Shown in pieces: positions 2,002-36,087 of a DNA stretch of 64,000 nucleotides. The stretch is from Antedon mediterranea (lineage: Eukaryota; Echinodermata; Crinoidea; Comatulida; Antedonidae): NCBI RefSeq assembly GCF_964355755.1, contig NC_092676.1, positions 22,922,288 to 22,986,287 of the forward strand. Direction: 5' to 3'. The position numbers were made by a program, and so were the translations under genes. Below the pieces are notes generated by a model. That model ran no database searches. It was not told where the DNA came from and saw only the letters and a list, made by a program, of their open reading frames with translations. Numbering within the stretch: position 1 is the first letter of the stretch; the number at the start of each line of letters is the position of its first letter.

Positions 2002-5000
2002 ATGAAGATTACAGTCAATTTGGTTTTCATCACTATTGTAACTTTAGCCCTTACATGGCCAGGTAAGTGCGTCACGTCTTTATTACGTTTGTAGACTTAG
2101 TAGGCCTATATAAAGTAATAATGTAAAAATGTTAATCCGGAAGTTATGGAAGGATTTTCTGACGTACAGTATTCCTATATAATAGTCCAATATTTCTATG
2201 CACTTTATTTATGGGTTTGGAGTGAAATTACACTTTAAAGACAAAATACACATTTTTAGCTTGTTTGTAATATAAACTGTATTAAAATAGCGCAAATTTT
2301 TAACAATTCAATTCTGTTATTATACAGTTTTACGCAACAACATAGCCTTGATATTTACGTACATTCATTGTAGTGCTATTATAATTAATATTATTAATAT
2401 TAATTATATATCTGTACATAATCTCATTTCGCAACTGTTTCTTTTCTGAATCATAAACTTTAAAGAAGTGATTGTTTCTGATCTTTGGTGTTTTAGAATA
2501 AAAATAATTTTTTTATAGGGTAAATAAGTCCATAGATTATCAGTAATAATGAATATATCGGTGTATCATCTAAATTATGTTAGGTGATATACAGTGTGAA
2601 CATGTATACATAAATCTTGTGTATTCATAGAAAGACTAAGAAATAAAAATAAGGTTTCAATGTATACCAGTGAAATAATGGTGTATTTAGTAAAACTTGG
2701 TTACTAAGCCCTGTCTACACTAACTGTATGGGATATATAGACATGATGACGTCATATAAATACCATTTGGCATATCACTACCATTATTTGGGCACAGCAC
2801 ACTTTTTGTAAAACTAGTTTGATAGTGTAGACGGGCTTTTAGGAAGTTTACATTCAAGCGAATTCAACAAGCATGTATGTTTGTTAAAATATATTGAAAA
2901 TACGGTCATTTTGTTACAATAATGTCTCTCAATTTAGCCTATTTTGCTTTAAACATTTTTGTCTGCTCATTCAATAGGTAATTCTAATACTTAAAATCTT
3001 GTAGCAAAAGGCCAGCCATTATCTGGCTATGAATGACAGATGTTAAACTAACAACAAACAAGTGCAGCAGTTTGTATGGTATAATCAACCAAAAATATTT
3101 GTATTATTTGGCATCAATAAAATTATCGTAATCCTAAGTTATGCTATAAATAATTTTATTATTTCTAAAAGTAGTTTCGCAATCGAGGCTTTTAAAAAAA
3201 CGATAGTAGATAATACAGTCGATTACTGACATGAATAAAGAATGGAAAGTTGAATGCATACAATATTAATGAAAGGAATATCTGTGGCAGAGGAAAATAG
3301 TTCAAGGATCAAGGATTAGTTTAATTTTAAAATATGAAACTGCTTTAAAAACACGTTCACTGCCACGGCGTATTTATACGTCAAAAATTGCGTGTCGCTA
3401 CTTGCCAAGACGTAATACTACGTCAAAATCGTAGCACTTTTGTATTGTATGTAGAATCGCTGGCAGTGGTGATTGGAACAGGAATTATCGCATGGCAGTT
3501 TATGAATGATGTACGTAAACGATAATCTAAAAAAAAATGTCATATGTTTGTTTGTGTTTATTCCCTCATGCATTGAATATGGTTTATACGATGGCGCCCT
3601 CACACTCAATATAATCATCTCAAACATGTCATAAATTGCGCTAATAGTAAATAAAAATAATAAAGGATGAAATGATTCAGTGTGGTTTACTGTTTTTATC
3701 TCTCGATGATAGGTTTGACCGATTTTAGCGCGGAAAATCTCCGACGTATATTTACGTTCCTGGCAAAGTCAATAAAATTGTTGGACCATTGCCAGTGACG
3801 TATTTATACGTCTCAACGGTTTTTCCCGCCATCGTATTTTGAATGACATCATGATAGTCTGTGACCAGATGTTACACTTTCAAACTGTAATTTAATATGT
3901 AAACGGGACTTGGCACTGGGACAGAAATTACGGAAAATGCCTTGGCAGTCAATGTGTTAAAACTCCAATTTATGGTTCAACGCCCTTTAATTCACCAATG
4001 AAAAGAGTAGTAAAAATTTAAAAAAAATGATAGAACATAGGTAGGAAAATTGTGGATGAAAATTATCTATATCTACATTATTCGGACTTCAACGACTGTA
4101 CTAAGCCAACTTAAAGCTCATACAATAAGGACACTACCAATTCAAATAAAATTAACAGTAACAAAAACGTATAACTATGGTTAATGTGGTATATGTTGAT
4201 TGATTGATTGAATTTATTTGATGCTCAACATTAAAATAACAAACAGACAAAAGACAAAATAACGAGCATCAGGAACACCCATTAGGCCGGAAAAACCAGC
4301 CCATTTCCAATGGGGTCCAAATTGCACATAACAAACAAGAGAAAATACAACATTTAAAAAACATATATATATATATATATACATTAAAATAAAGCCCAGT
4401 AAAACAGAAAAATTAAAAGAGAAAGCAAACAAGTAATGAGAAAAATTGCACGTTATCAAGACCATTATAGTTATCAAAATTATTCTAAATATAAAATATT
4501 GCGTTCAAAATATTTTTTAATATGAGATTTGAAAGTAGTTAAGTTGGGAATTAATTTTAAGTTTGATGGAAGAGCGTTTTTGTTGTCTATCAATAGCAAA
4601 TCGGTTTCTTTTAATCAGTTATGCTAAGTTCGACAGCAGCTCTGACATGCCTAGTTAACGTTAATTACGTTACGGACATGGCTTTAGAAAATGAGCAGGT
4701 GACATCCGTTCTCTTGGACCATATCTTGTTCACAATGCCAACTTGTTTTGATAAAATACATAGTACATGATTATTAAAATAATTTAGTAAAGTGTGATGT
4801 CTAATCTGGACAATATAAGATACAAATTAACACTCAGCACAAACATAGTTTGGTTTGCTTTGTTTTCTTGTGACGCCCTTTTTAATCATACTAAAAACAA
4901 AATAGTTGCTTTATTTTGGTATGCCAGAAGTGGAAACATTACAATAAACAAACAAGGCACGATTATTTACTTTAAATTATTAAGCATTGATTAATTCACG

Positions 5001-8000
5001 TAAATTGACGGGTTTCATTGATGGTAATTTATGTTTACCTTTTTTATTTAGTTTTCTGCCAAGAATCAGCGTCGTATTATGGAAAGGCAATTGGCGACTT
5101 CATGACATACGCACACAGGGCAGGAGGTAGTGTCTACGCTATCAATGATCAAACGATGTGGATCCGTAATTTTAACTATGATGGTACAGCTCCAGGTAAT
5201 TATATTTCTATCGACTATAACAAGTCTATAACGACAATAACATCTTACAAAGCGATAACATGTTTGCTGAAAGAATAAATAATTACATTTATTTACATCG
5301 GATTTGTGTTGTTTTTGTGTAGATGCATTTCTATGGGCTGGTATGAACTCGAATCAACCTAGCTCTGATGGAGAGATTATTCCTAAGGAAGATGGAAGGT
5401 AAGAGAATGCAATATATCTTCTTCAGTAGTAATTTGCATACGATCTTCATTGAAGAATTGTAATATATGAGGTACGGCACAAACAGAGATCACCATATTT
5501 TAAATGTGTTACTTTTGGCGACACAAGACATTTAAACGGTTATCGGAGGACCAGCGAATATCTTAATCTATGAAATTACCACTCCACGTTCAACGTCTTT
5601 ATCATTTTCCCCGTATATACCTTGGTTTAGGTAGACATAATAGGCTTAATAAATGATGCTGTGACACGTTGTTTCTTTATATTACAGTACCGATAAGTTG
5701 GGTGCTTATACAAACCAGAATATAGTAGTAACACTCATGTCCGGAAGAGTTATTTCAGATTTCAAATGGATCTCAGTGTGGTGTAAATCGTTTGCGGTAA
5801 CGTACTGAATTCAGTATTCCATTACAACTTTTGAGAAATAATAAAATCAATAATAATGGACGTCGAATTGCAAAGATTAATTTAGTTAGTATGCTCACTG
5901 CAGATTCACAACACAAGTCTTTATTCACAATGGCAATAGCTTTTATTTAGTGAGTTACTATTCATTATGGTTATGTTTGTTACACGTGAGTTTTTAGTGA
6001 CGACTGTCGTCACACTAATATCAATGCATTCTTTAGGTCAACTTTGCCGATGTGTACATTACTGATGGGTTTCAAGCGCCTTCTCCTCATTCTTTCGGTG
6101 TACTTGGATTTAATCCAAGAGTTCATAATGTTAGAGCTGATGACGTCATATTCGTTGATAGCAAGACAATTCGATTCGAGAATTTAGAATACGATGGATT
6201 TGGACCAGGTACCTTAACTAATTTATAGATATATAAAATACCAAATATGAATAAAGGTAAATGTAAATCCGTATCATAACAAAATACGTAAACATCTAAT
6301 CGAGAACAATTATATCGTCTCGTGTTTAGATGCGTACTTCTGGGGTGGAACCGGAAGCCCGAGCACAAGTGGATTTGCAGTTCCAGATGAAAACGGAAGG
6401 TAAGTATTTATTACTATTGTAATTATTTGCACTATTTTTATTTCTTTCAAAATGATAATTTTATTAAATCTAGTTATTTTCAAATAAGTTGTTATATTTA
6501 AATAAGAAAATAATGAACTCGTCTATTAAAGTATTTATATCTTTAGCATTGCCAACTACAATAATAAGTGTTTGTTTAATTCTCAATGCAATGCCATTTG
6601 GTTTATTTTCAACACTGACAACTATTTATTTATTTATTTATCGACTCTTTTCAGGGTATGAAAGAACATTCTTTCAACCTTATACAAAGAAAATAACTAA
6701 ACACTTCCAGACATAAAGATTTGGTCTTATACATAATTTCTATATAGAAAAGACACATCTAACTAAATATATACAGAATTTCGTGAATAAATTGAGCTAA
6801 GTTTGAGAGTTTTCTTTTTGGATTTGGTATTAAATAATTGGTGCATTCTTGTTCTATTTGGGCTAATGATATAATACTTTTGAATATATATTTGTCGCAC
6901 GGGAACAAGTACACTGGATGATGCATATTATATCAGATTTAAGATATGCACTATACACAGGTTATTATCGTTGAATGGAAAATAAAAGAAATTACATTAA
7001 TTTGGATGTTTTTTAAATGGAGTCAGAAATAAAATGAGTAGGCCTACAACAAAATAGAACAGCCAGATAGAAATGGCAAGGTCTTTGAAAACATACTTCG
7101 CCAGTGCTAACATCTGAACATAAAGCTATCCAAACATAAGTATTAAGGTCTACAACATTTAACTTATGATACCTAAAGTGTTGCAATTAAAATATATAAT
7201 CATTAATTTTCTTGCAGCAAAGACCAACGGTTACGTAGATATACAGGCGAAACTATTACCATTAAACTTGATGGTGATTTAACAGTTTTTGACATTGATT
7301 ACATTGGATTATGGTGTGTAGCAGCTAGGCAAAACTTCGGTCATGTCGATATTCCAGACAGGTCGCAATTAAACATACCGCCATCGTATACTGTTGATGT
7401 AGTGGTAAGTAGACATTTTAAACTTCATATACTACAACCAAAATGTGTCGGAAGCCATTGGTTTGTGTAATACGTGCATTACCAAATTTAGACGATAAAA
7501 ATCACATGTGGACATGTATTGCGGAGTTTTCAATATCTACCTAGTTTATACTAATTAATACCATAACTTGTTGATATAGTATTGAGAATAGGTTTAATAA
7601 AAGAATGAATGAGGTATTTACTAATTATTCACCCTATACTGAAGCTGTAACTAGATAGTGTCTAACTGACTATTGCAAGTCATCTAGAAACTATTCTAGC
7701 TGTATTTTTAAAACTAATTCTAAAAATATTGATTTTGCAATACATTATTATGTTAAACTTTCAAAACAGGAAGAAAATGTTGTAAATTGTGAGCAACTGA
7801 ATGAGAACCTGCAAGTGCTCTGGACCATTAACAGCACCATGGTTAACTTCCAGCTGAGAGGAGACGTAGACGTTGATGAATACATGGCGTTTGGTATCAG
7901 TGGTTCAACCACAAGTACATCAATGGTTGGGTCAGATGTTGCTGTCACCTGGTTTGATGGACAGACTGCACAAGCAGTAGATTACAATATAAATGCTTAT

Positions 8001-11000
8001 TCTCAGGTACTTGTGTTATCTTGGTGCAAAATGTTGAATGGCGTCCCAGTATGTGAAAGAGTTGGATATTCACTTTGTAGATAAACTTGTGTTTTCGGAT
8101 ATGAATGTTATAGAATTATCGTTGTTGAGTATTTTTGTTTTTGTTGTAACGTAAGGAAAAATATGAATCTAACAAACACATTTTCCTAATTGTTATTCAT
8201 TGCTTACTTACAATTAACAATGAAAAAAGACTATAACATGATCGTTTTATCTGTAGTGTTCAAGTGGAATTGGTGCATGCCCTGACCAGTCCTCTAGTAA
8301 CGTCGGTATAAACGATTTAACTGGGATATCTGGCTATGTTGAGGATGGTGTGACCAGTATTTCGTATTCCAGGTTACTGGATACAGGTATTTATAAAGTG
8401 CATATTATAGCTAAATTTAATAACTAGAGATCAAGATGACACACTTGTATAGAATTTGAACTTAAGTAACACGTTAGCTGTGTCTTTTTTGTTTTAGTCC
8501 TTTTGCATGATGTTTTATGCCCTTCCTTTTAGATAGGCTGTTAAACCCATTAAAGTCATACGGTATACAGACACAAATAAATGCTTGTAATAAACAATAA
8601 CAAATAACAAAGCATCGTATTACATCTGATAGTAAAGCAGTTAATGATATCGGAAGATGTAAATTAAGTGTAGTATGCTTTTGCCGTAAATTATTCATGG
8701 GTTTTACTTTTTGATAAAAATAATGCGGGCCATGAACATTGTACACAATGATTGCATCATTCTATTTATAAATTAATTGAATATTTTTCAAAAACACTAA
8801 TAATAAATTAATCATTGGCAGGAGATGCAACTGATAAAGTAGTTCCAGCAACAGGGGAAACGTATGTGTCTTGGGCTATTGGACCAATAAACAGCGATGG
8901 TTTAGCTACAAGGCATTCGGTTCAAACAGAAGGTATGTAAAGTCATTTGAACCGTAAAATCTCCTTCAGAAAAAGATATAAACAACACACAGACAGCACA
9001 ATTTAAGATACATGATATCACTATTAAACCGGACAGTAAATATTTATTATCATCAGTTGATTGTTTCATTTACTTGTAATATATACGGTAATATTAATGT
9101 AATATTATTTCATATTTATAGTACAGCTAATATCTAAATACAGAAATACAGTTGTTTACATTGATAATTAACAGTGAATTCTCCAGAAAATGGAAAGAAG
9201 ATCAATTTCGGTCGACTACCATTTGATAATTGCACTTCTCTTATCGAGACCGGGCCAATTGAAGGTTGGGACGAGTTGACCATCCATCCGAATGTAACTC
9301 ATTTTAACGCTACAATTGGTCCAAGTGGTGGTGAAAAAGGTTATACCTCTATAACAGGTACTGCATTTATACAAATTCAACCAGTTGATATAATCTGTTG
9401 ATATAATATATTGATAAATTATTTATGCTAAATCTGATAAAAATTATTATTTCAATAAATGCCCAATAATTTAATCTTAAGAATTGTTACATAGTATAGA
9501 CGAACATAATAATAGGCCTAATATAAGTAATAACATAGTGAGTAAATAATTCATATAAACAACTTTCTTACTTTTTTTGTGCAGGAAATGTTGGATGGGG
9601 AATCGCTTGGTACATAAACGGTTTGCTTATTCCACGGCTAACACTAACTCGTGGAACAACATACACATTTTCAGTAAACGGAGGAAATGATCCAAGTCGA
9701 AGTGCAGACTACCATCCACTGTATCTTACCAATGATACAGGAGGTGGGTACGCTGCCATTGTACCGTCTGACCAGGTAAAACATTAAAAAGAAATATAAG
9801 TGACAGTTTTTAATATGATCTCGGTAAGTAAGTAAACAAAACAACATACTGCTTTCATCACTGATAGAGGGTCTTCCTATATAGATGCAAAATAAATCGA
9901 ATATAACAAATTGAAAAGAAAGTTATTAGTGATATTTACTTTGTTCTGGTTTCCAGAATTATGATAAAGCTCATGTTTAACTTGCTTTATTTCCAGATAA
10001 CACAAGACATATATGCTGGTCCAGTATGTAAGTTCTGTAAAAATAGATAAAAGAAATCTAAACATTTAAAAAATATCGTCACATAATTCTCTTTTTTTAT
10101 CTTTATGAATTATTAATATTAGTAATGGCTCTATTTGATTATGGTCAGGGGAATCACACACTTGCAGTAATAACTCCGGACATCTCGGAATAAAAACAGA
10201 CCTATAATTGCTAGAGTGTGTTTTCCACAAAATTGCCTTCACACTATGAAAGCATATGATTTGCGTTGTGAAAAGAGTAAAATAATTTCAAAAACATTTT
10301 TTTTTAAATTCAAGCGGGTCCGTTGTGTCAATACATAAGCACAGCAGAAGATGATCAGAGTGCAGAATCCGACACCTTTCAAGATTATGCCAACACGTTG
10401 GAACTAGTCTGTAATTCACCAGGCTCAGGTACACTGGTGTTTACACCAGACGACAGTACACCTGACAAAATATACTATCAGGTAAGCGTATTCCATCAGG
10501 TAGAGTTAACAATTTAGCATATGAATGTTGTTGGAGAAATTAGTTTCTTTTAAAGTGTTGTCATACTAATATAAATTGTTTCTTAAACAGTGCTATACGC
10601 ATCGTTTCTTAGGATGGGAGATAGACGTTATTGATCCAGTCGTTATAGGTAAATATGATTTTTTTTTAGAATAGTTTTTTTTTATATAATGCTTAAAGAA
10701 CCTATCTTGTATTGTATATCCAAAAGCTTATACAAAACTTTATCCTACATACATCGTTTTATTTATTTATTGTTTATAGTTAAGTTTATTATTATTATCT
10801 ATTTGGGACAAAACTGGGACGTTATCCTGCAAGCATACCCCACATAAAAGCGAACTTACTTGACGTTAATGCTTTAAAAATGCGTAATGACCAAAATTTA
10901 AGTAATCTGAGGCTTCATTGTATTTCTACCGTTGTTTGCCTGTATGTAAAGAGAAACTTACATTTCCATTCGGTATACATGTTGTAAATGTATATGTGTA

Positions 11001-11558
11001 ATATGTTTAAGCACAGGTGAATGCGGTGCTGGATGCTTAAACGGTGGTACATGTGTTACTATAGATGAAACTAGTTTCTGCAATTGCACTGAAGGCTTTA
11101 CTGGTCCGACGTGTAAAACAAGTGAGTTTGTTTTGTTTGTTTGTTGAATAATATTTTCCACAATGTTTGGATTTTCAAGAAAGGCTAGACAGTTTAAAAA
11201 AATGTAGATTGTCGTCAAAATAAAGTATTATAATAAATAACTTTTACTCTAGTCTTGGTTATAAAAAAAACAACCTTAAACCTGATAATACAAATGATGC
11301 ATGCATTAATGTCAGAGAAAAGTATTACAATAAAGATGGAGGAGGAGATATTAGTTAGTCCTGCTGATTATTCAAAGACATTTATTGGCCTAATAAAATC
11401 ATATTTTTTTTAACCAATAGCACATTTTAAAATGGCAACTTAATTTCATTCTAAAATGAATACCGGTAATTGTAATGATTTATAGTTTTTTAAATATTAA
11501 TTTATTATTTGTGTGTTTTTTTTCAGTTCTTGTATATTGCCCATGCGCAGTACCATAA
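2002..11558 (+). CDS. Skeletor-like: Gene A: secreted Skeletor-like protein (DM13-DM13-DOMON-EGF), 687 aa, 17 exons
   Basis: Exons: 2002-2062, 5052-5195, 5323-5398, 5688-5796, 6037-6208, 6330-6399, 7218-7404, 7770-8006, 8257-8386, 8822-8932, 9175-9357, 9585-9775, 9997-10027, 10315-10481, 10591-10648, 11017-11121, 11527-11558. All junctions are GT/AG and the sum is 2064 nt, ending in TAA. Residues 1-20 form a hydrophobic signal peptide. DM13 domains span about 25-137 and 138-255, each with its conserved WC cysteine (Cys126, Cys244). DOMON spans about 277-435, and the Skeletor C-terminal module about 436-640, including the [14 protein letters not shown] motif. One EGF (643-677) is followed by a ten-residue tail. 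Order and motifs match Drosophila Skeletor and Knickkopf. The signal peptide makes an extracellular location likely, unlike the nuclear spindle-matrix role reported for fly Skeletor. An extracellular redox role is the family hypothesis, not shown here. Confidence 0.9.
2704..2841. mobile_element. 138-bp MITE in gene A intron 1
   Basis: Imperfect terminal inverted repeats sit at 2704-2722 and 2823-2841 (core GTCTACACTA and TAGTGTAGAC). The interior has no coding capacity. Family not identified. Confidence 0.65.
3345..3960. mobile_element. 616-bp non-autonomous piggyBac-like element in gene A intron 1
   Basis: TTAA at 3345-3348 and at 3957-3960 bounds the element. The right end read on the minus strand begins TTAACACATTGACTGCC; the left end carries the related CACGTTCACTGCC three bases inside its TTAA. 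A TTAA target site with a GACTGCC-type terminus fits piggyBac. The interior repeats a motif around CGTATTTATACGTC and encodes no transposase. Confidence 0.55.
4196..4606 (-). mobile_element. Truncated LINE 3' end in gene A intron 1
   Basis: Read on the minus strand, about 4606 to 4485 encodes a peptide containing NALPSNLKLIPNLTTFKSHI and then stops. This resembles the last residues of non-LTR reverse transcriptases (W-N-x-LP ... FK pattern). A 3' untranslated region follows, ending in a (TCAA)n tail at 4196-4210. No upstream reverse-transcriptase domain remains and no target-site duplication was found. Confidence 0.55.
4363..4380. repeat. (AT)9 microsatellite
   Basis: Uninterrupted alternating AT inside the LINE 3' region. 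Confidence 0.85.
5052..7404 (+). other. Gene A exons 2-7: the two DM13 domains
   Basis: DM13-1 starts with YYGKAIGDFMTYAHRAGGSV and carries YDGTAPGDAFLWAG. DM13-2 starts at GVLGFNPRVHNV and carries YDGFGPGDAYFWGG. The paired motif, and the paired introns cut after G of PG-D and after the DG dipeptide, show that the two domains arose by duplication with their introns. Each ends with an aromatic-W-C motif followed by V/QNF, typical of the DM13 end. The cysteine is the proposed redox residue of this family. Confidence 0.88.
7770..8932 (+). other. Gene A exons 8-10: DOMON domain
   Basis: The domain begins at [15 protein letters not shown] and includes [22 protein letters not shown], two cysteines flanking GIGA, and [22 protein letters not shown] is a beta-sandwich that binds haem or sugars. 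Met325 in the SMVG motif lies where haem-binding DOMONs supply a methionine ligand, so haem binding is possible but not demonstrable here. Confidence 0.85.
9175..10648 (+). other. Gene A exons 11-15: conserved Skeletor C-terminal module
   Basis: Contains [51 protein letters not shown] and, near the end, a GPLCQY segment and [17 protein letters not shown]. The same order is found in animal Skeletor proteins and nothing in it suggests a membrane segment. Exon 13 is only 31 bp. Confidence 0.85.
11017..11558 (+). other. Gene A exons 16-17: single EGF repeat and short tail
   Basis: Exon 16 encodes one six-cysteine EGF (GECGAGCLNGGTC ... CTEGFTGPTC) on a phase 1-1 exon. Exon 17 follows a strong pyrimidine tract and adds ILVYCPCAVP before TAA. 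This short tail replaces the 27-EGF array of the paralogue next door. Confidence 0.8.
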
Positions 11559-11726
11559 ACCATCCATTAGGATATAATTATGTAGGCCTACAATAACGGT
11601 ACAATTTTAACTATGATTAGTAAAGTTATAAATCACATATTCGGAATAATCAAAGGATGCAGTGGACATCAATTCATATTCCATTTCTATCTATTATCAA
11701 AGGAAACGAATTCAAGTAAAACCATG

Positions 11727-11732
11727 AATAAA
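11727..11732 (+). terminator. Candidate polyadenylation signal AATAAA of gene A
   Basis: AATAAA lies 168 bases after the gene A stop codon and directly before the perfect hairpin at 11733-11760. Further AATAAA motifs near 12267 are alternatives. Confidence 0.4.
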
Positions 11733-11760
11733 ATAAAGCAATGCGACCGCATTGCTTTAT
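11733..11760 (+). other. Perfect 12-bp hairpin in gene A 3' region
   Basis: ATAAAGCAATGC (11733-11744) and GCATTGCTTTAT (11749-11760) are exact reverse complements with a GACC loop. It would be transcribed if cleavage lies downstream. Function unknown; it is too short for a typical microRNA precursor. Confidence 0.6.
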
Positions 11761-12527
11761 ATCGTTTTTCTTCTTATTGGTGTCGATTTCTGGCCCCTTT
11801 TAAATACTGAGAAACAAATTGAGGATGGGGTTAAATGAAATGTTTTAAAGAACAAGATGTGTTGTGTGGCAATATAATTTAGTGTTTTTCTTTGGAATCA
11901 ACAGTAAAGTCGATTTTTTTCCAAATCAGTCAATATAATGACGTCATAATAACAAAGCAACCATGCATAAGTACAATTGTACGTTAATCGTCTTGTTTAA
12001 TAAGTTGATATAATCAAAATGCATGAGCTCTGTAATGTTAGTATCATGGATATTTTTTTAAAGATAGAATTTGTACTGAAATAATGATAAAGAAAATGTA
12101 GTTTACTCTACGCATGGATAAATTAATTAGTACTTATTTATCAATGCTCTACCTGATATACTTTATTATTTTACATAGTATTATAAACCTATACATAGAT
12201 ATAAATTAAGATATGTAACCTTTAATATAATTATATATTTCTAGCCTTCCATTTTGTACATAGTAAATAAACAATAAATCGATCGAACAGTTATTTATTT
12301 GTCGAAGAAACCCTTCATAAAATATGACTCACCAAACGAAAGCATTCAAGCATAATTCGATATACCTGTGAAATGCGACTAAACAGGAGCTCACACGAAC
12401 AATAGAAATTGGGATAATGCTGTTACAATAGGCTAATAAAGATCGAGCACTGGAGTGTGTCACACGCAGGCATTTGGATCTATAAGATTGTAATCATTCG
12501 TGCAGTGAACATACTGGAGACTATTTG

Positions 12528-24500: not shown

Positions 24501-27500
24501 TATCTAAAACTAAATGATTTTATATTAAAATGATTTTAATATTAAAAGGACGTAAATATATAAAGTTCCTATCTACTACACTTAACTGTTGTTAACATAG
24601 ATCAGCTAACTCGTTCAAGTGACGAGTTACTATCAGATTTTTGTTAGTATTTGAGTTTTCTTTAATTTTAGTTTTGCTTACTTTCCTTTTCCATTTTTTT
24701 TTAAATGTCGATACAAAATTACACTAACGTATTATAATATTAATTTATCATTGCATTTAGGTAGAACTAGTTTATAAAACATATCAGCAAAATTGTTATT
24801 GTTAATATTCTGGTGAAAAAATCATCTTTTTCAGTGTTATACTCATCGATATCTAGGATGGGAAATAGACGTTGTTGATCCAGGTAAGTATTACACACTA
24901 CCTGAATTGTTTTGAAACTCAATGTAATGACAAATTACAGTATAGCATCAAGGAAGAGTTTGTTTCGCAAAGAAAAAAATAAAAATTAGTAATAATACAA
25001 ATGATACACCAAGTAACAACACACAAAAGACGTCAACATAAACAACACAGCAAAAAGTGACATGTTTTGCTAAATATTCAGTACAATACCGAATATTGCA
25101 AGAAATATATTATTTATTATACCGTATGTATAGTGCAATTATGTCATATAGTATATCTGACATACTGAAGCATGGTTACTACTTGGATGCAACGCAACCA
25201 CAAGCGCCAGTGCTGATGATCCATCGCGTCGTGATATAAGAGTACCTTCCTGACACAATGGTAGGATAGGTATCACCATAACGATAGAAACTTCAAGAAA
25301 GATTTATGTAATTTCACTCAATATCATCAAATATTGCTTCCTTATTGTTGTTTTTGTTTAGATTTCTTTTAATATACACAAACAATCTTTTATTATGTGC
25401 ATATTTTAATTTTAAAAATCGTTGTTTTAAATGAATACAAATGATTCTAATGTTATAAATTAGACCTAAATAAAATGTATGTTTTTCATTCTCTTTTACA
25501 AAAAGGATGCGCTACATCACCTTGTATGAATGGTGGTCTATGTCTTCCGACTACAAATGGGTACTTTTGTGTCTGCCCAGCAAGCTACAGTGGTGTCAAC
25601 TGCGAGATAGCTGGTCCGTGTGCCAATAATCCTTGCTTAAATGGTGGAATGTGCACGCCAATAGGAACGTCATATCAGTGCTCCTGTATGCCTGGATTCA
25701 GTGGCAGCAACTGTGAACAAGGTAGTATATACAAATACATCAAGGCAGGATTACAATACATTTCCTTAACATTGGCAATTCTTATACAATGCGACGACCA
25801 ATGATAAAATATGCGTAGGTCCGATAGTCGCAAATCAAAGGCCCACTAATAGTAACACGGCCATGAAAAGAACAGCCATAATCTTACTTACTTACTTAGT
25901 CCGGGACATACCCAAACTTATATGACAAGATTCCTCCATAATTTCCTATCTGCCATTGTGACAGCCAGTTCTTCTCTTTGCATACCAAAATCCGTCTCTT
26001 GAGTGCTAGTCTTCCATATAAATACATCATCTTTTTAAAAGTAGTCGATATTATAGAGATGTCGGACTCAATTTAGTATAAGAAGTCTGTAATTATAACG
26101 TTTCAAAATGTTGTTAATTTTATAGTTGACATAACTCCTTGTGGTCAGATTCCTTGTATGAATGGAGGAACGTGCACAAATTTAGGTACAACTAGTTACA
26201 TTTGCAGCTGTCCCACATCCTACTACGGTCAGAATTGTGAACTTGTGAATCCATGTAGTGTAAACCCATGTCTTGGTGGAGGAACATGTGTCGCCGACGG
26301 CTCCTCATACACTTGCATTTGCCCTGTGGGGCTAAGTGGAAGTAATTGCCAAGATAGTAAGTAATGTTATAATAAAAGTAGTGATTTTATTATTTTTAGA
26401 ATTAACCAATTTTTCAAAAGCTATTATTATAATTATTGCTGTGGATATTCTGATATAATATTACCAATTAAATTAACATTATTATATTATTGAAAAAAAT
26501 ATTAATGCGTATTATATTATTATATTATTAAATAATAACAGCTACTCCTACTGCTTGCGACTCATCACCCTGCATAAACTTTGGAACATGTAATGCAATA
26601 GTTGGAGGATATTTCTGCACGTGTGTTCTTGGTTACGTTGGAGTTAACTGTGAGCAACGTGAGTAAACTAAACAAAAATATTATACTGGTGTAAATAATT
26701 CAAGTTGATACCCGTACTTAGACCGTTGATATCCATATCTACTGTTGATACCCATGCCTAGCATTGATACCCATGCCTACCACTGATACCTGATATCCAT
26801 AAATACAGTTGATCCCCGTACATAAAGTGCCATTGAAACCTGTACCTACAGTTCATACCATATACCTACAGTCCATGTATGCTCCTAAGTTCATATCCAT
26901 ACGATTGATATTTGTACCTAATTAAAAAACCAACATGATGATCAGTATTCTATTACCTGCTAATAAAAAAACTTCTCTATTTAAACGGTTGTTCCAACAA
27001 TCGTGTTTCAAAGTTGATATAGCCATGCACTTTGTAGTTTTACTACACAATTAAATTACATTGTTTTGTATTAAATTAAAACAACAATTATTATTCATGT
27101 AGCTGCTTCTTGTGAACAGGGTTACTGTTTGAATGGAGGACAATGTTCGTTTGACCTCCCAACCGCTACTGCCACTTGCTTCTGTAATAGTGGATTTACT
27201 GGTACTCGATGTGAAACAGGTAAAGACACTTTTGGTTCGTTTGGAAAATTCATACTGAATTATTATAAGACCTATTAAAGAATTTATAGCTCTAATCTAT
27301 ACCAGCATACAGTAAGTTGACAGGCTGGTGATGTCAGTCGTCTGAATTCACACCAGTTCAATTAATATTAATTGGCCTACTTCATGTAATAATTAAATGT
27401 GTAGGCTACTGTGAGCCTATGCAAATAAATATAATTGTAAAGAAAATACTGCTGACAAGATATGAACGATTGTTACTTTTAGAATTATTATCTGTAGGCC

Positions 27501-30500
27501 TATAATAATTAATTGTATAATACAGGGAAGTTACTTATAGTTTGCTTTGTTCTTTTTCCATCTTAGTTTCTTCTTGTTTTCATCTTAGTTTTTTCTTTCA
27601 TTTGTCTTCTTTTGCTTGTTTTTCCCTTTATTATTTAGTTTATTCCTCCATTTTTTTCATTTTCTTCTTTACTCACACTTCGTTTGTTTTAAAGCATTCA
27701 TAGGATGTAACACTTCACCTTGCCAAAATGGAGGAATGTGTTTAGAGCAACAATCCACTGCTTCCTATTTCTGCTTATGTCAAAATGGTTATAGTGGCAC
27801 GAATTGCGAAATAGCACCAGTTGACCTCTGTACACCTAGCCCTTGTTTAAATGGAGGTATTTGTCAGTCTTTGTCTACTACGGAGTATCTGTGCCTGTGT
27901 CAGTCAGGCTATACAGGCACTACATGTGAACAATGTAAGTTTCATGAAAAATTCACATTAAATTTGTGTAAAGTTTAGGAGAAGATGATTAGATAATTTG
28001 AAAAATATTTAGCGCTAATTGTTTGCTAACATAATATTTATAATCCAGCATTTGTCAAAGAAAAACAATGAATCATTATTTGTAAACATTTAACAAACCT
28101 ATGTTAGAACATATTTATTTATTGTTTAAATACCTCCAGATACAGAAGAAATTATTAAATTCATATTATTTGGTAAACATAATAAGTATGCTTATGAGAT
28201 GAGTGAATAGCTGACTTTGCATTTCGATAACTTATAATTTGAACACTGAATATACCATTTTTTTTTATATCATAAAACAAGTGGATAAGCTATATGGTAC
28301 ATAGACTTCGTGATTCCAAAAATTGACACTTTTTGTAATCATTTATACAATAATAACACTTTAATAAAAAAATCCATCAGTGTTTTACATAGCCCTATAA
28401 TGTTTTTTTACAGTTAACTTCTGTGCTAATTCACCGTGTCTGAATGGAGGATTGTGTACAAGTACTACCACCGGATACTTCTGCACATGCGTCAATTCAT
28501 ACTCTGGAGCAAACTGTGAAATTTCACCAACAAGTAAGTACCTGTCCTTGCACCTTGTACTTATGTATTTGAAATATTGTGAAGCATAATTACTATATAA
28601 ATGTTTACGAACGAAGACTCGTGAGTAATATTACATATTGTTTCTTTTTCACAGCTAATTTCTGTGCGAATTCGCCGTGTCTAAATGGAGGGGGTTGTAC
28701 AAGTACTTCATCCGAATACTTCTGCACATGCGTCAATTCATACTCCGGAGCAAACTGTGAAATTCCACCAACAAGTAAGTACCTATCCTTGCACCTTGTA
28801 CTTATGTATTTGTAATAATGTGAAGCATAATTACTATATAAAATGTTTACGAACGAAGACTCGTGAGTAATATTACATATTGTTTCTTTTTCACAGCTAA
28901 TTTTTGTGCGAATTCGCCGTGTCTAAATGGAGGGGGTTGTACAAGTACTTCATCCGGATACTTCTGCACATGCGTCAATTCATACTCCGGAGCAAACTGT
29001 GAAATTCCACCAACAAGTAAGTACCTCTCCTTGCACCTTGTACTTATGTATTTGTAATAATGTGAAGCATAATTACTATATAAATGTTTACGAACGAAGA
29101 CTCGTGAGTAATATTACATATTGTTTCTTTTTCACAGCTAATTTCTGTGCGAATTCGCCGTGTCTAAATGGAGGGGGTTGTACAAGTACTTCATCCGGAT
29201 ACTTCTGCACATGCGTCAATTCATACTCCGGAGCAAACTGTGAAACACCACCAACAAGTGAGTGATTGACTTGCTTTTACCTTGTATTGTACAGCTGCTC
29301 TATTCTATAAATACAAACTACCTGTATACCTGGTTGACTACACATATCTAGTTAACCCTTTTAATGAACCAAGAACATGTACAGTATGAATTAATATATA
29401 TATTTTTTTGTTTTAATCAGCTAACTTTTGTATTAATTCGCCGTGTTTGAATGGAGGATTGTGTACAAGTACTTCAAATGGATACTTCTGCACATGCGTC
29501 AATTCGTACTCTGGAGCAAACTGTGAAATACCACCCACCAGTGAGTGATTGACTTGCTTTTACCTTGTATTTATATTTTTAAATTAATGTGACGAATTAC
29601 GTACTATATAATAGCTAACTACACATGTGTGTACCTGTTTACGAGTCAAGACCATGTGCTATTACATATTTGTTTTGTTTTTTCACAGCTAATTTCTGTG
29701 CCAATTCACCGTGTCTAAATGGAGGGGGTTGTACAAGTACTTCAACTGGATACTTCTGCACATGCGTCAATTCATACTCTGGAGCAAACTGTGAAATACC
29801 ACCAACCAGTGAGTGATTAACTTCTTTCATGCACATTTTATTTATCATTTAAAGAATTATAATGGTAAACTATGCATGCCTGGTTAAGTACTCATGGTAT
29901 TGTAACTGATTACGAACCGAACTATATTATGTGCTATTATTGTTTTCTTTTGACAGCTAATTTCTGTGCGAATTCGCCGTGTCTGAACGGAGGGATTTGT
30001 ACAAGTACTTCAAATGGATACTTCTGCACATGCGTCAATGCATACTCTGGACCTAACTGTGAAACCCCACCAACCAGTGAGTGACTAACTTACCTGAACC
30101 TTGTATTTATGTATTTTTAAATCAAGTCAACTAAAGACTATATCCGGTAAACTATAAACGGTACCAATCGTAAAACAATAAAATTAATCAAACATTCCAT
30201 TAATGGATATAACATATTTATAAAAATCTTACTGTTTAGAGTTTTAGTCATGAAGTCCACTTTTTCTATATTAATCCTTTATTAATCTCGGAAGCAAACC
30301 AATACATATTTTTTAAATACTATTCATCTCTTTAGCGAGAAAACGTACATTAACAATGCTTTACATTTTTGTATTCTTTAAACAAATTTTCAGTTGACGT
30401 CTGTTCCAGTATACCATGTCTTAATGGCGGCCTCTGTACTAGTACTTCTACAGGTTATGTTTGCGAATGCGTTAATTCGTACTCTGGAATAAATTGTGAA

Positions 30501-33500
30501 ACACCACCGGCCGGTGAGTTAAATTGCCAAACTTATCTTATGAAACAGTAATGAGATTAGAAAGACTGAAAGTTTCCATTCTAAAATATAAGGGAAAAAC
30601 ATAAAATCGTTTTATTATTTTAAAACGTTTATTGTCTACCAATTGCCAATATAATCATATTGTATACAGTATATTGATGATATAAAGTTTGCGGTACAGC
30701 AGGTATATTAGTTCTGAAAATAACTGTTCGAGTTTCTCGACGTTTCGATCAATATGCTACTGTAAACGATCAAGCATATTGATCGAAACGTCGAGAGACT
30801 CAAGAGTTCTTTTCAGAATTAATTACGTGGTATACCGCAAACTTTATATCAACATTTGATTTTGCTATACAAAACTTCACACAACATATTGTTTTTTTTT
30901 CCTTATTCTTTGTCATTTTTAAATCAGGTGGTTTCTGTTCAAGTAATCCGTGTATAAATGGAGGAAATTGCATTGGCTATTCTTTTGGATATTTCTGCGA
31001 ATGCAGCAATGCTTTCACTGGAATCAATTGTGAGACAGCACCAACTCGTAAGTTCACGTAAAACAATAGCATTTTAAATAGATATAGCAAGTACGAATAA
31101 TATGAATGCGAAAGGTACAGGAAGAAAAACAAATTAAAACAGGGATACTAATTTTAATGAATAACATGTGCGACAAACCTAAACAAATATCTGAATTATC
31201 CTTTTCATATTATCGTCTGCCTGTAATATTGTTATCAATTTAAATTTAAACATAATCATAAGTGCATGCATTGTACAATTTACTGAAGATCGTAATCTTC
31301 ATTATTTCAGCCTCTGGCGAGTGCCTCAATGCCCCTTGCATAAATGGTGGAACTTGTATAACATCTGGGAATTGGTACATGTGTATCTGCCCGCCTGATT
31401 ATATGGGAGACCGGTGTGAAACAGGTAAGTTCCCATGTATATTCTTTCCACTATTAAGAGTACCCGTTTGAACATTATGTTTATGTGGAAGCAAAAAGCC
31501 TATGACAATCATCGTTCTTTTTATATAGACCTTTTGTCAATAGTTTCCTCTAGAACAGTTTGTTATTAATAAATAAATAACTAATACATTACAATGTTGC
31601 ACTCTTTTTAAAACCTGAATTATAATACAATCGTTATACTTATCTCTTAGTGAATTAACAATTAAAATATTCATATTTTGAACGAAAACAATTTCTGAAA
31701 CTGAAACTATCCTAATAAATACAAACACAATTATTTTGTTAAAATGTTACATGCAAACTAAACCATTATGTCTATTAAAATGTAAATGCAACTATAAAGT
31801 TTCTTTTTTTTTATAGGAGGTACTATGCCATGTGCCAACTTTCCATGTCTTAACGGTGGTTCATGTACCAATGTGGACACTAATACTTACATATGCGCAT
31901 GCTTGCCAGACTACTCCGGCACAAACTGTGAAATAGATAACACACCAAGTGAGTCATTCCAAATATTTTTTTCATCAAATCATTATTTCAAGTCAAATCA
32001 TTGGCGGTCACTTGTTCCATTATGCAATATTGAGGTAGAAGCATTTGCATCTTCAATGTTGACCACATTTGTTTTATTAAATCGTATTTCTCCAATACAA
32101 TTTTCTCACAATTTTAACCTTGCATTGCTTAATAAGCATAACATTTTAAGCATCGTCTACGATCTTTCTATTACGGTTGTTTATGATACATGATTTTTTG
32201 CAAATAGTAACATGCCACAGACAATCATATATCGTAAAAGCTCGAGTTCTATTTATATTCAATATAGAGAGATTGGGCGAAATTTTAAAAAGCTCGCCTC
32301 TCTCTCGCTATCTGCATTTTCATATTTTTCTCAGTTTCTGAACGTTAATTAATTACTTTTGTTAAAAATGTAGCTCTTCCATGTGACAGCAGCCCATGTA
32401 TAAATGGGGGATTGTGTTCAAGCATCGGTTCTTCCTTCTACAGTTGTACATGCCCTACTAACTATTCGGGAACGAATTGTGAAACTTATACGCCACCAAC
32501 AGGTAAACTGATTTTATGGAATTACAAATTGGACGGTATAGTTATAGGTACTGCCATCGACTGGAATCATCTACCAGATAAGGTTGTAAATTGTACTTCT
32601 ATTCTGGAATTCAAAACCCATATTGTCCAAACTTAATTAAATAGGGTACCCCTTGTCACAACTTACTCTCTGGGGGTCTCTGTCTTGGTGACAGCTCGCT
32701 GGGCAACTGGATGGCTGAGGCGGGGTAAATGGGTATCCAGCTACTTTATTCTGCCTCCTAGGTAGCGGCCCAGGAAAGTGATAGCGGTTGGCACGGACGG
32801 TAGACTTCCATAGTGTTAATGTTGGGTACAGTTTACTCTTTTTTTTACTCTTTACAAGGTGTCTGAATACAATACAATTATATAATAGATAGGATAGATC
32901 CAATAACTTTAAAAAAAGAGATAAGGGAAAGGGAAGAAAAGAGAGAAAGAAAAGTGAAAGGAGAAGTAAGGGGAAAAAAAAAAAAGAAAAAAAAAAAAAA
33001 AAAAAAAAAATTAAAAAATTAAAAAAAATAATAATAATAATAATGATAATTAATAATAATAATTATAAATAAATAAGGCAGTCAGTTTCTCTCTGTAAAA
33101 GAATAACTAAATAGAACAATAATACACAACCAAATACAGTAGAGCTAGCAAAACAGAGTTGGAGGAGCAGAGTCTTCACATATGAAGTTGGCTCCTAATA
33201 TGAAGAAGAAGAAGAAGGTATAGTTATAGGTATAGCCAAATTAAGCATTAATAAAGCAGAATTGATGTCGGACTTTCCCGAAGTCTGTTTTCACGCTAGT
33301 CCACCAGTCGTTGTTTCTATTTTTCTAACGTATGAAACGCCGTTAATGTCAACATATTTATCCTTTTTATAATATTAAGTAGAACAGTCTAGAACCTATA
33401 CATATATTATTGTGTATGTAACGCTGTTTTGCCACGTAAATACGTATTTAATGTCATCACATTTGTCATTTACCTATTCATTTAAAAAAACAAATAATTT

Positions 33501-36087
33501 TACAGGAGAGGGTGAATGCGCACGAGCTCCTTGTCAGAACGGTGGATTGTGCCAAACCTCAGGGACATGGTACATCTGTATGTGTCCTCCGGAGTATATT
33601 GGTTATGACTGTCAAACGCCAACCGGTAAATTATTTCAACTCTGTATTTGATATTCTAGGGGATACTGTACATGTTACTTAAATAACATAAACTACCAGA
33701 GGTGATTGTAGACGATTGATTTTTCAGATGAACAATTAAACTATTTACTTCTTATTCAAAAATAGAATAGGAATGTTTAAATAATGACTTTAGTAAGACA
33801 ATTATTTTGTGTTGGTAGATCGAAATATTTCTGTTTTGTTGCAGATGGGTCAGCGGCTTGCAATTCTATGCCATGTCTGAATGGTGGTACATGTACAAAT
33901 GTTGGCACATCATCATTTAGCTGTGATTGTCAAATGTATTACTCTGGTACTACCTGTGATGTATATACGCCACCAAGTAAGTGATTTCAATACAATATGA
34001 CAGTATTTTGGGCCTACAGTTGTAAAACACTCATAAATAATGTTTTGCGAAAATAACATTAACTGCTATTTAACCATTAAGCTTTGAACAATCTGTTTGC
34101 ATGTTACAATAGTAAGCGTTGTTAGTGAACACTATATGCAATAAAAGTTATGTAACTGCACAGCATTCTTAATTTAATGGAAGGGCAATAGCTATCCCTC
34201 AATATATTTTAATTCTATGGAACAATATGTTTGTTTGTTTTGAAATCTGGGGTTTGAGAATAATACACCTATAAAAATGGTGAATTGTAAACATTTTAGA
34301 AATCTTTTCACTTTTCCAGAAATATCATTAATATTAACTATGTTTTATGTTTATTTTCAGCATCAGCATGCTCCAGTAACCCTTGTCGTAACGGTGGATT
34401 GTGTACATCTATTGAACCTACCAGTTACATGTGCGATTGTGCAATCAACTACTCGGGAAGCAACTGTGAAACATACACGCCACCTACCGGTGAGTAATTT
34501 GCTTATAAACATTCTCCCTTCTCTCCCAACATTTAAGAAATATTAAGCCATCTCCATCAGAAAGTATAGTTGTAGTATATTTTTAGAGAAGAGTATAGTA
34601 AATGTAGTTCATGGTTGCTCTTTTTAGCATCTTATTGAATTTTGAGGTTAGGATGTGGTAGAAAACTGCACGGATTGTCAAGTTCATAATTATATCTATT
34701 GTTTAGTTATGTTTTGTTTATATATTTTTATTAAATCTGTTTATTTTTTATATCAAGAAGCTTTTAAACTCCCTAGACGCAAATAAACTACGCATTAATT
34801 GGACGTATACCGTATAGTAAAATGAACTTTCTTTTTCATAAACATGTTCCTATACTTTTGCAGATGGAGAGTGCTCTCGAGGTCCCTGCCAAAATGGTGG
34901 TACATGTATGACATCGGGCACGTGGTACACATGTACCTGTACCTCATCCTATGAAGGATATAATTGCGACACACCCACTGGTAAAAGACCATATTTGTAA
35001 AAATACCTTTATAACAATACAACAATAATATACCATACTAAATGATAGAGGGCGGGTAGATTAATCAAAAGACTAATATGTTAAACAAAATTAATAAACA
35101 AATAAACTAATTTATAGAGGGCGTACTATCCGGTTAAGCTGAAGCTATTTCCACTACCTTGTTTCAATGACCTGGTTGTTTCTTTGAGGGTTACGATTTG
35201 CTTTATAACCAGGAAATGAGATTGTCGATGAATTAGACTAATAATCAAATAAATTTAGCACAGTAACTTTCACTTGTTTCATTCAATAGGCGTCACGGAT
35301 CCGTGCTCCAATTCTCTATGTCAAAATGGTGCCACTTGTATAGTTAATGGAGATAGCTACAACTGCGCATGCTTGGCAGACTATGAGGGAACGTATTGTG
35401 ATGTCTATAACCCAGGTAATTAGTTTTAATTAAATATTATGACGCATGCATGTTATGTCTGACCTATATCACACACTAGTCCAATATATTATAATTTATT
35501 ATTAATGTAATTATTCATGATAAACAAATACACTTCTAAATAAATTTAAAAATGTATTTCCTCAAACAGGTACTAATGCTTGTTCAACCTCCCCATGCCG
35601 TAATGGCGCCACCTGTGCCATTGTTGGATTTAGCTATATGTGTACGTGTATGAATGGGTACGAGGGAACTAACTGTGAAACATTTAACCCAGGTACTGTA
35701 TTATAAACGTTAAGACGTGAAATATTTTCTGCGGTTAATATTCTTGCATATAGTTATATAATATGCAATAGTTATTTAGATCCTTCATTCAATCGTTAAG
35801 CTACATGGTGATATTTCTATTACGTCATTTTATAATGCTTGGTGTAGAGGACCACGTTAGGTCCGTGTTATTGAGTTTGACGTATCATCAACCAAACCAC
35901 CAGTAGTTGGTCTACATACATCGTTATTGCATAACATATAGCAAATTTATAATCTGCTTGCATTTTAGGTGAAGTGTTCTCTTGTGCGCCGAATCCTTGT
36001 GTAAACAATGGTGTTTGCACTCCTTCTGGGAATTCATATGTTTGCAACTGCTTGCCAGGATATACAGGTTATAATTGTGACCAGTAG
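12528..36087 (+). CDS. Skeletor-like: Gene B: secreted Skeletor-like protein with 27 EGF repeats, 1713 aa, 39 exons
   Basis: Exons 1-15: 12528-12585, 14190-14333, 14722-14794, 15289-15400, 15866-16037, 16323-16392, 16795-16972, 17368-17595, 21778-21907, 22352-22462, 22713-22901, 23253-23443, 23966-23996, 24247-24410, 24835-24883. Exons 16-39 are listed under the EGF array. The total is 5142 nt, in frame, ending in TAG. Domain order is signal peptide (1-19), DM13 (about 24-136), DM13 (137-252), DOMON (273-428), Skeletor C-terminal module (429-633), then EGF repeats to residue 1713. There is no transmembrane segment or GPI signal, so it should be secreted. Exon lengths and phases match gene A one for one through exon 15, proving tandem duplication. 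The first ATG was chosen; a second in-frame ATG lies at 12534. Joining the EGF array to exon 15 rests on matching phase and orientation and should be confirmed with RNA. Confidence 0.87.
12945..13040. repeat. 23-bp perfect inverted repeat, gene B intron 1
   Basis: 12945-12967 and 13018-13040 are exact reverse complements (AGATCTCGTCAGTG at the left edge) around a 50-bp spacer. They belong to a larger repeat-derived stretch of about 12900-13260. Confidence 0.7.
13119..13146 (+). other. Hammerhead-like CTGATGA motif
   Basis: CTGATGA is followed by a possible helix GGG...CCC and then AAAA where the ribozyme core needs GAAA. Type I hammerheads are known from Penelope-like retroelements. The mismatch in the core makes this at best a decayed copy. 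Confidence 0.25.
14190..16972 (+). other. Gene B exons 2-7: the two DM13 domains
   Basis: DM13-1 has [20 protein letters not shown] and YDGTAPGDAFLWAG; DM13-2 has [12 protein letters not shown] and YDGRAPGAAYFWAG. Both WC cysteines are kept (WISVWC, YIGLWC). Exon 3 is one codon shorter and exon 7 three codons shorter than in gene A; otherwise lengths agree. Confidence 0.87.
15682..15716. repeat. Hairpin around GCGCTAGTT in gene B intron 4
   Basis: AACTAGCGCCA (15682-15692) pairs with TGGCGCTAGTT (15706-15716). The right arm belongs to a GTGATGGNNCTAGTTAC motif seen also at about 15630 and 51223, so this is probably a small interspersed repeat. Confidence 0.5.
17044..17305 (+). mobile_element. 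Probable LINE 3' end in gene B intron 7
   Basis: The stretch ends with an inverted pair (ACTGGGTCCTCTG and GAGGTTACCCAGT) and then a (AATA)n tail at about 17293-17304, typical of a non-LTR element 3' end. No coding part is left and no target-site duplication was found. Confidence 0.4.
19150..20650. repeat. Degenerate internal tandem repeat of the long-TIR element
   Basis: A phrase resembling CCTTAGTTATGCATAGAAAC, then GTTGCTA-GGTAAC, a CACAAGGTCA motif and CATGAAACCCCATATTT recurs at about 19166, 19925, 20116, 20250, 20440 and 20610. Spacing is irregular (about 130-200 bp, with one larger gap). Confidence 0.5.
19378..19912. mobile_element. Possible second element nested in the long-TIR transposon
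   Basis: GC-richer than its surroundings, with repeated GTAAGCGGCCAC-type phrases and a right edge GGGAGGTTCAACTGTA. The left edge near 19378 also contains GCGGCCACCTCCC. Boundaries are approximate and the superfamily was not identified. Confidence 0.35.
22713..24883 (+). other. Gene B exons 11-15: Skeletor C-terminal module
   Basis: Carries [56 protein letters not shown] and [17 protein letters not shown]. Exon 13 is again 31 bp. Exon 15 is three codons shorter than in gene A, moving straight from DVVDP into the EGF array. Confidence 0.87.
26704..26900. repeat. Degenerate minisatellite, about 20-25 bp unit
   Basis: Units resembling GTTGATACCCATGCCTA recur about eight times in the intron between EGF exons 18 and 19 of gene B. 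Confidence 0.6.
28414..29257 (+). repeat. Four near-identical 241-bp exon-plus-intron units
   Basis: Exons starting at 28414, 28655, 28897 and 29138 are spaced 241, 242 and 241 bp. Both the 120-bp EGF exons and the intervening about 121-bp introns are nearly identical. Exons at 29421, 29689 and 29957 are close relatives with diverged introns. Confidence 0.9.
30674..30853. mobile_element. 180-bp palindromic MITE in gene B (copy 1)
   Basis: The ends (TTGATGATATAAAGTTTGCG and, inverted, CGCAAACTTTATATCAA) are inverted repeats. An inner pair around ACGTTTCGATCAATATGCT is also inverted. A second family member lies at 50096-50265. Confidence 0.7.
32535..33232 (+). mobile_element. 5'-truncated LINE with 16-bp target-site duplication
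   Basis: GGTATAGTTATAGGTA occurs at 32535-32550 and 33217-33232. The insert begins with the end of a non-LTR reverse transcriptase open frame ([18 protein letters not shown], stop at about 32634). A 3' untranslated region follows with an A-rich tract (about 32910-33060), and the insert ends in a (GAA)n tail. It lies in the intron between gene B exons 32 and 33. Confidence 0.8.

Follow-up and report, generated by a model that had tools for sequence, protein, structure and literature searches.

Tandem DM13-DM13-DOMON genes of a crinoid end in one and in 27 EGF repeats at the exon boundary where two paralogues have hydrophobic tails

Two complete, intact genes lie in tandem on the + strand of the stretch of Antedon mediterranea DNA that we analyzed (C7:22922288-22986287; 64,000 nucleotides, hereafter the window), as seen by translated self-comparison and exon-by-exon splicing. 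Each has, in the same order, a signal peptide, two DM13 domains, a DOMON domain and a conserved C-terminal domain, followed by EGF repeats, of which gene A has one and gene B has 27. We place A and B, as a tandem pair, in the DM13-DM13-DOMON (Knickkopf/Skeletor) family. In both, exon 15 is predicted to splice into EGF exons, with phase 1, at the position of the GPI-type tail in two of three paralogues. The explanation that we favor for the whole, and consider fairly probable, is that exon shuffling replaced the anchor, so that the product would be a redox protein that is secreted and tethered to the matrix.

The window has a G+C content of ~32% and contains no N bases, and the genome searched comprises 354 Mb in 18 contigs. 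The splicing of A and B described here consists of models from genomic DNA alone; neither spliced model contains a frameshift or an internal stop. Gene A (2002-11558) has 17 exons and encodes 687 aa:

2002..2062, + strand: exon 1, ATG and signal peptide MKITVNLVFITIVTLALTWP, phase 1 at its end
5052..7404, + strand: exons 2-7 (5052-5195, 5323-5398, 5688-5796, 6037-6208, 6330-6399, 7218-7404), two DM13 domains, from splicing and Pfam
7770..8932, + strand: exons 8-10 (7770-8006, 8257-8386, 8822-8932), DOMON, from splicing and Pfam
9175..10648, + strand: exons 11-15 (9175-9357, 9585-9775, 9997-10027, 10315-10481, 10591-10648), conserved C-terminal domain, which includes YHP and CYTH motifs
11017..11121, + strand: exon 16, the lone EGF, from splicing and Pfam
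11527..11558, + strand: exon 17, C-terminal end ILVYCPCAVP (10 residues) and stop codon

The donor that closes exon 15 of gene A is in phase 1, the lone EGF has a Pfam score of 20.5 bits, slightly below the cut-off of 21.5, and AATAAA/ATTAAA motifs follow the stop codon at 11727 and 11732. Gene B (12528-36087) has 39 exons and a coding sequence of 5142 nt, equal to 1713 aa and a stop codon:

12528..12585, + strand: exon 1, ATG and signal peptide
14190..16972, + strand: exons 2-7, two DM13 domains, from splicing and Pfam
17368..22462, + strand: exons 8-10, DOMON, from splicing and Pfam
22713..24883, + strand: exons 11-15, conserved C-terminal domain, closed by the donor CAG/GTAAGT at the end of exon 15 (24835-24883)
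25506..28533, + strand: exons 16-21, EGFs 1-9, two each in exons 16 (25506-25721), 17 and 20
28655..30076, + strand: exons 22-27, EGFs 10-15, alike among themselves
30394..36087, + strand: exons 28-39, EGFs 16-27 and stop codon

These coordinates and the EGF counts of 1 and 27 had been given correctly in the initial annotation, as judged from splicing and the six-cysteine pattern. In both genes exon 1 is a hydrophobic ATG exon, signal-peptide-like in a hydropathy scan. The tail of B holds its 27 six-cysteine EGFs over 24 exons (16-39). Exons 17-38 were chosen under an imposed phase of 1/1, and for each of them an acceptor and a donor fitting that phase, with an open frame, were found. As EGF (PF00008), the tail scores E 5.7e-129, with 19 separate stretches at E up to 0.001. 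In exons 22-24 the identity to the neighboring exon is 97.5-98.3%, and between units 22 and 23 it is 98.8% with the intron included, so part of the tail is young.

Several repeats accompany gene B and its surroundings. Intron 8 (17596-21777, 4.2 kb) contains ~3.9 kb, at 17732-21651, flanked by a 31-nt inverted repeat (97%) with more inverted arms within, which looks like an inserted DNA element. On the 3' side of the gene, window positions 36798-38415 form a tandem array of ~89-bp and 282-bp units with GCGCAG motifs. A dense tandem repeat array of ~1.9 kb, with copies ~83-94% identical, lies at 86.6-88.5 kb in window coordinates, and in 94 kb (window plus downstream) there are 34 copies of the palindrome TAGGCCTA, where base composition predicts ~0.8.

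The 15 shared head exons had been described as equal in both size and phase. Their phases are identical in 15/15, but their sizes only in part: seven of the 15 are identical and the other eight differ by 3-9 nt. At the protein level A and B are 74% identical to each other and 45-57% identical to the other paralogues. Over the 628 head codons compared, dN was 0.18 and dS 0.79; the first, second and third codon positions had identities of 0.818, 0.844 and 0.634. Thus, purifying selection acts on the heads of A and B, both of which have been under selection at the protein level since an old duplication.

A genome-wide search for DM13 gave nine exon matches on contigs C7, C11 and C4, all 14 of 14 candidates being scored. 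With part of the B head as query, they resolve to A, B, a pair of genes on contig C4 (D1 and D2) and one gene on contig C11. PF10517 (DM13) matched two stretches each in A (E 4.6e-47), in the first 705 residues of B, which served as the B head in the Pfam scan (E 1.7e-50), and in D1 (E 1.1e-46). One DOMON (PF03351) follows the DM13 pair in A (E 2e-19) and B (E 9.9e-20), and part of an At5g54830-like domain was matched in A, in the same 705 residues of B and in D1. The C-terminal domain of A and B, a partial match to PF25489, is kept in 5/5 paralogues, all from the same genome. No NCBIfam match was found for the B head, and none of the 11 Reeler matches in the genome falls inside A or B.

Within the heads, Met283 and His398 of the DOMON and His510, Cys596 and His599 of the C-terminal domain (B numbering, counted from the QESVSY start) are invariant in 5/5 paralogues. 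We take Met283/His398 to suit the ligands of heme b and His510...Cys596-x-x-His599 to suit the ligands of type-1 copper of the plastocyanin-type cupredoxin kind; a Trp five residues past the last His presumably stands at the place of the axial Met of plastocyanin. No solved structure matched the head by phmmer (E up to 0.1) or by profile (E up to 5), and the metal-site reading is therefore an argument from motifs. As judged from these motifs, the heads of A and B keep residues that could bind heme and copper, and electron transfer by the heads may follow.

That tandem DM13-DM13-DOMON-Skeletor-type heads are joined to EGFs, as first proposed, fits both the splicing and the domains. The alternative is that 25506-36087 belongs to another gene, coding for a secreted EGF protein, and that B ends soon past exon 15. 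EGF matches are indeed plentiful genome-wide (at least 137 and at least 143), and intron 15 of B contains AATAAA/ATTAAA motifs (24978 and 25469), yet such motifs are expected in AT-rich DNA. We scanned the + strand of the window for ATG exons that begin hydrophobic and close with a phase-1 donor in which 7 or more of the 9 bases fit the consensus. The scan returned three rows, one for exon 1 of A and two, from two ATGs, for exon 1 of B. No signal-peptide exon with a phase-1 donor was found on the + strand in 21909-36087, ahead of or within the array, in a scan that is blind to a first coding exon ending in another phase or having a poor donor, so that a start of that kind could be missed. The donor closing exon 15 of B, CAG/GTAAGT, is a perfect consensus, the intron to exon 16 is just 622 nt, and B has no hydrophobic tail of its own at this point. 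The sequence thus gives no sign of an independent EGF gene, and we judged one improbable; a single gene in which the B head is predicted to splice into the EGF exons is the reading that we keep.

The length of the B tail could also be a product of misassembly, that is, of a collapsed or expanded repeat, which we regard as very improbable. The identity of 97.5-98.3% among exons 22-24 would allow it, as would the state of a neighboring gene (gene C, below), in which a 4263-bp unit stands three times at 99.9%, so that local copy number could be wrong. Against this, the window is free of N, six cysteines and an open frame are present in 27/27 B EGFs, and most of the EGF exons are strongly different, so only ~3 copies are in doubt.

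We compared the ends of A and B with those of the other three genes of the family. Like A and B, the paralogues D1, D2 and the C11 gene have the same domain exons, and with phases imposed these exons can be fitted to a common 15-exon plan, in which exon 12 of the C11 gene and exon 15 of D1 and D2 were not placed. In an unrooted tree A and B stand together (99.7/98). Unlike A and B, D1 and D2 end in hydrophobic tails: exon 15 runs straight into the tail, right after CYTH...D. In D1, exon 15 is present in two copies 1.5 kb apart, each with its own hydrophobic tail, so D1 probably has alternative last exons that give two anchors. These last-exon copies lie at C4:4778760 and C4:4777299, and one of them contains CYTHRFLGWKINVVD. 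The C11 gene differs again, with a stop three residues past the shared end and neither a hydrophobic tail nor an EGF. The best 14-residue Kyte-Doolittle means were 3.03, 3.24 and 2.46 for the two D1 copies and D2, compared to 1.16 for A and 0.51 for B.

No phase-1 donor was found within 60 nt of the exon-15 ends of D1 and D2, and no EGF pattern was found around the paralogues in 50 kb on contig C4, a stretch that reaches ~20 kb past the 3' end of D2 and 0.4 kb past the 5' side of D1, or in 30 kb on contig C11. Neither A nor B has a hydrophobic tail, and no hydrophobic alternative last exon was found for A (10649-12500) or for B (24884-26126); farther into the tail of B there are four weak candidates for such exons.

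A hydrophobic anchor is a known ending in this family, given that in Tribolium a GPI anchor is predicted for TcKnk and for one form of TcKnk3, and a transmembrane one for TcKnk2 (PMC4140639, available portion), and that a DM13 protein appears in a table of a Brugia GPI-proteome study (PMC6742230, available portion). Members of the Knickkopf family differ in having a GPI or transmembrane anchor, which is thus not strictly defining (available portion of PMC4140639). The initial annotation saw in the EGFs an addition that would tether the head. The EGFs are there, but since the position at which A and B are predicted to splice into EGFs is occupied by a hydrophobic tail in two of three paralogues, a GPI-type anchor was more likely replaced than simply supplemented. 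The direction from anchor to EGF in A and B is tentatively suggested by a comparison within one genome, in which the C11 gene, with neither ending, counts against replacement. Lacking an anchor, both proteins would be secreted and not lipid-anchored.

Both flanks of the A/B pair carry further EGF arrays. Gene Z, on the + strand, has at least 30 EGFs in the 20 kb upstream of the window (-19999 to 0), and its stop lies at about window position -330, 2.3 kb ahead of the ATG of gene A. Gene C, on the minus strand, has 23 EGFs recognized by their pattern, between 67716 and 40489. Like those of the B tail, the EGFs of Z and C are mostly single with intron-like gaps between them. Unlike A and B, these genes have no DM13 match and have a Reeler match just upstream of each array (C7:22901488, +; C7:22992337, -; a third lies at C7:22861755), and we infer that Reeler and EGFs form one gene each in Z and C.

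Further features of Z and C were seen along the way. The likely head of gene C, at L013:7622-7891 (-), comprises a probable signal peptide and the start of the Reeler at 16 bits (cut-off 21), and the next part of this Reeler lies at C7:22992337-22992579 (-) with 56.5 bits. An exon with CWNMD-GC...DDLFK-GR is common to C and Z (in Z, L018:9239-9517) and matched no Pfam family. Gene Z also has a Kazal domain (4.3e-8). From window position 56011 to about 68000, the 4263-bp unit of gene C, with four EGF exons, is present in three copies at ~99.9%, which reflects either amplification in the very recent past or duplication in the assembly.

For the origin of the B tail, we searched the genome with four of its 24 exons, hand-picked rather than random, and scored the best ~150 of 1900-2500 candidates for each. 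Among the candidates scored, the best match outside B was in gene C for exon 32 (69%, 2.1e-12; next 3.7e-10), exon 38 (67%, 6.7e-11; next 2.3e-9) and exon 33 (61%, 1.1e-8; next 2.3e-8). For exon 39 it was the last EGF of gene Z (68%, 9.9e-9), with a negligible lead over the next (1.0e-8). Two further results point away from the flanking genes. Longer queries with several B EGFs had their top scores against long EGF arrays on contigs C4, C1 and C6. In a domain-only comparison with 304 other EGFs, 53 of them from Z and C, the best match lay in Z or C for 11 of the 27 B EGFs; of the remaining 16, 11, exon 32 among them, went to one array at C1:22947500-22949100. This sample leans against the local genes because it was drawn from the top hits of B elsewhere.

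The order of the EGFs was compared as well. No significant collinearity was found between the last 11 EGFs of B and 11 of gene C (equaled in 155 of 2000 shuffles), between all 27 of B and gene C (93 of 1000), between the last 11 of B and the last seven of Z (206 of 1000) or between C and Z (407 of 1000). We therefore make no claim of collinear descent of the B tail from gene C and keep only that of nearest relatives.

The EGF of gene A gave a different result. Genome-wide, the ten matches listed for it at E up to 1e-4, with 150 of 823 candidates scored, are itself and EGFs on contigs C8, C11, C2, C3 and C6, with identities up to 72%, and no B EGF is among them. One of these genomic matches adjoins an LDL-receptor class B repeat. 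Spacing between cysteines 1 and 2 is three residues in the EGF of A versus four in all 27 EGFs of B. Within the window alone, the EGF of A does align with EGFs of B, best with exon 30 (38% over 53 residues, E 7.35e-8 in a small set), and with EGFs of gene C too. The picture of short and long versions of one tail, implied in the initial annotation, was not borne out, since the genome matches listed for the EGF of A lie, apart from itself, on other contigs and none of them is in B.

A homologous origin of the two tails, in which an ancestor of A and B was already EGF-tailed, A kept one repeat and B expanded, is nevertheless a serious if unlikely alternative. It would account for the phase-1 boundary that both genes have at exon 15, for the grouping of A with B in the unrooted tree and for the alignment of the A EGF with B EGFs inside the window. 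It sits poorly with the different cysteine spacing, with the ten genome matches of A and with the matches of the searched B exons to the flanking genes Z and C, though EGFs, being short and quick to diverge, leave room for such homology. We retain the reading in which the tails have separate sources. The B tail would then most likely derive, at least partly, from the neighboring Reeler-EGF genes by exon shuffling and would have grown by tandem exon duplication, and the lone EGF of A, being of a different type, probably came from another source.

We tentatively propose, as a possibility short of a probability, that this family swaps its ends at the C-terminal exon boundary. One phase-1 junction would have received two EGF tails that differ in origin, that of B coming from the flanking Reeler-EGF genes, and a lipid-anchored protein would thereby have become a matrix-tethered one. 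The same joint proposal takes in the ends of the five paralogues: two alternative GPI-like tails, one such tail, none, one EGF and 27 EGFs.

The head would be a secreted redox unit, the tail would set its location, and the EGF string of B may act as a flexible matrix-binding stalk that holds the head in the extracellular matrix. The string could instead be a signaling ligand or a receptor-binding module in the manner of Notch, with no tethering to the matrix, which we think rather improbable. EGF repeats are able to bind receptors, and the B tail scores as ordinary EGF (PF00008). However, its last EGF exon lacks a hydrophobic segment, and neither calcium-binding EGF (PF07645) nor DSL is among the five Pfam families of the tail at E up to 0.001; the exon-16 segment by itself gave a PF07645 match below the cut-off (18.9 bits, E 0.0018). 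A matrix-binding stalk is the role that we prefer. Paralogues with the same head and different ends in one genome would allow the function of the head to be told apart from its location, and, if the tail exons were captured from neighbors, the locus would be a clear example of exons shuffled from one gene to the next.

The DM13-DM13-DOMON family is already known, and the EGF-ended variant is new as far as the literature was searched: we found no report of a DM13+DOMON+EGF architecture in the freely readable literature. Among the records retrieved and rejected, judging by their available portions, "EGF" in PMC11354708, the one paper in which the words DM13, DOMON and EGF all occur, is part of EGFP, and "domon" in PMC10893224 and PMC11373435 is the author name Domont. 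In a brittle star, another echinoderm, Protein Skeletor is among the tabulated genes that Notch inhibition affects (PMC7217437, available portion), and DM13-DOMON proteins are needed for the insect cuticle (PMC4140639, available portion).

Set beside known metalloproteins, A and B hold His...Cys-x-x-His and Met/His in places that would fit plastocyanin-type cupredoxins and heme-binding DOMON domains, respectively. Unlike plastocyanin, they have a Trp at the presumed place of the axial Met, and no structure matched them by sequence. Unlike the GPI-anchored or transmembrane members of the insect Knickkopf family, as these are described in the available portion of PMC4140639, A and B end in EGFs and without a hydrophobic tail. 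Like that family (Knk, Knk2 and Knk3/Skeletor; same source), set beside them by description, they have a signal peptide, two N-terminal DM13 domains and a DOMON in the center, and their conserved C-terminal domain may correspond to the C-terminal part of ~200 residues described for the insect proteins.
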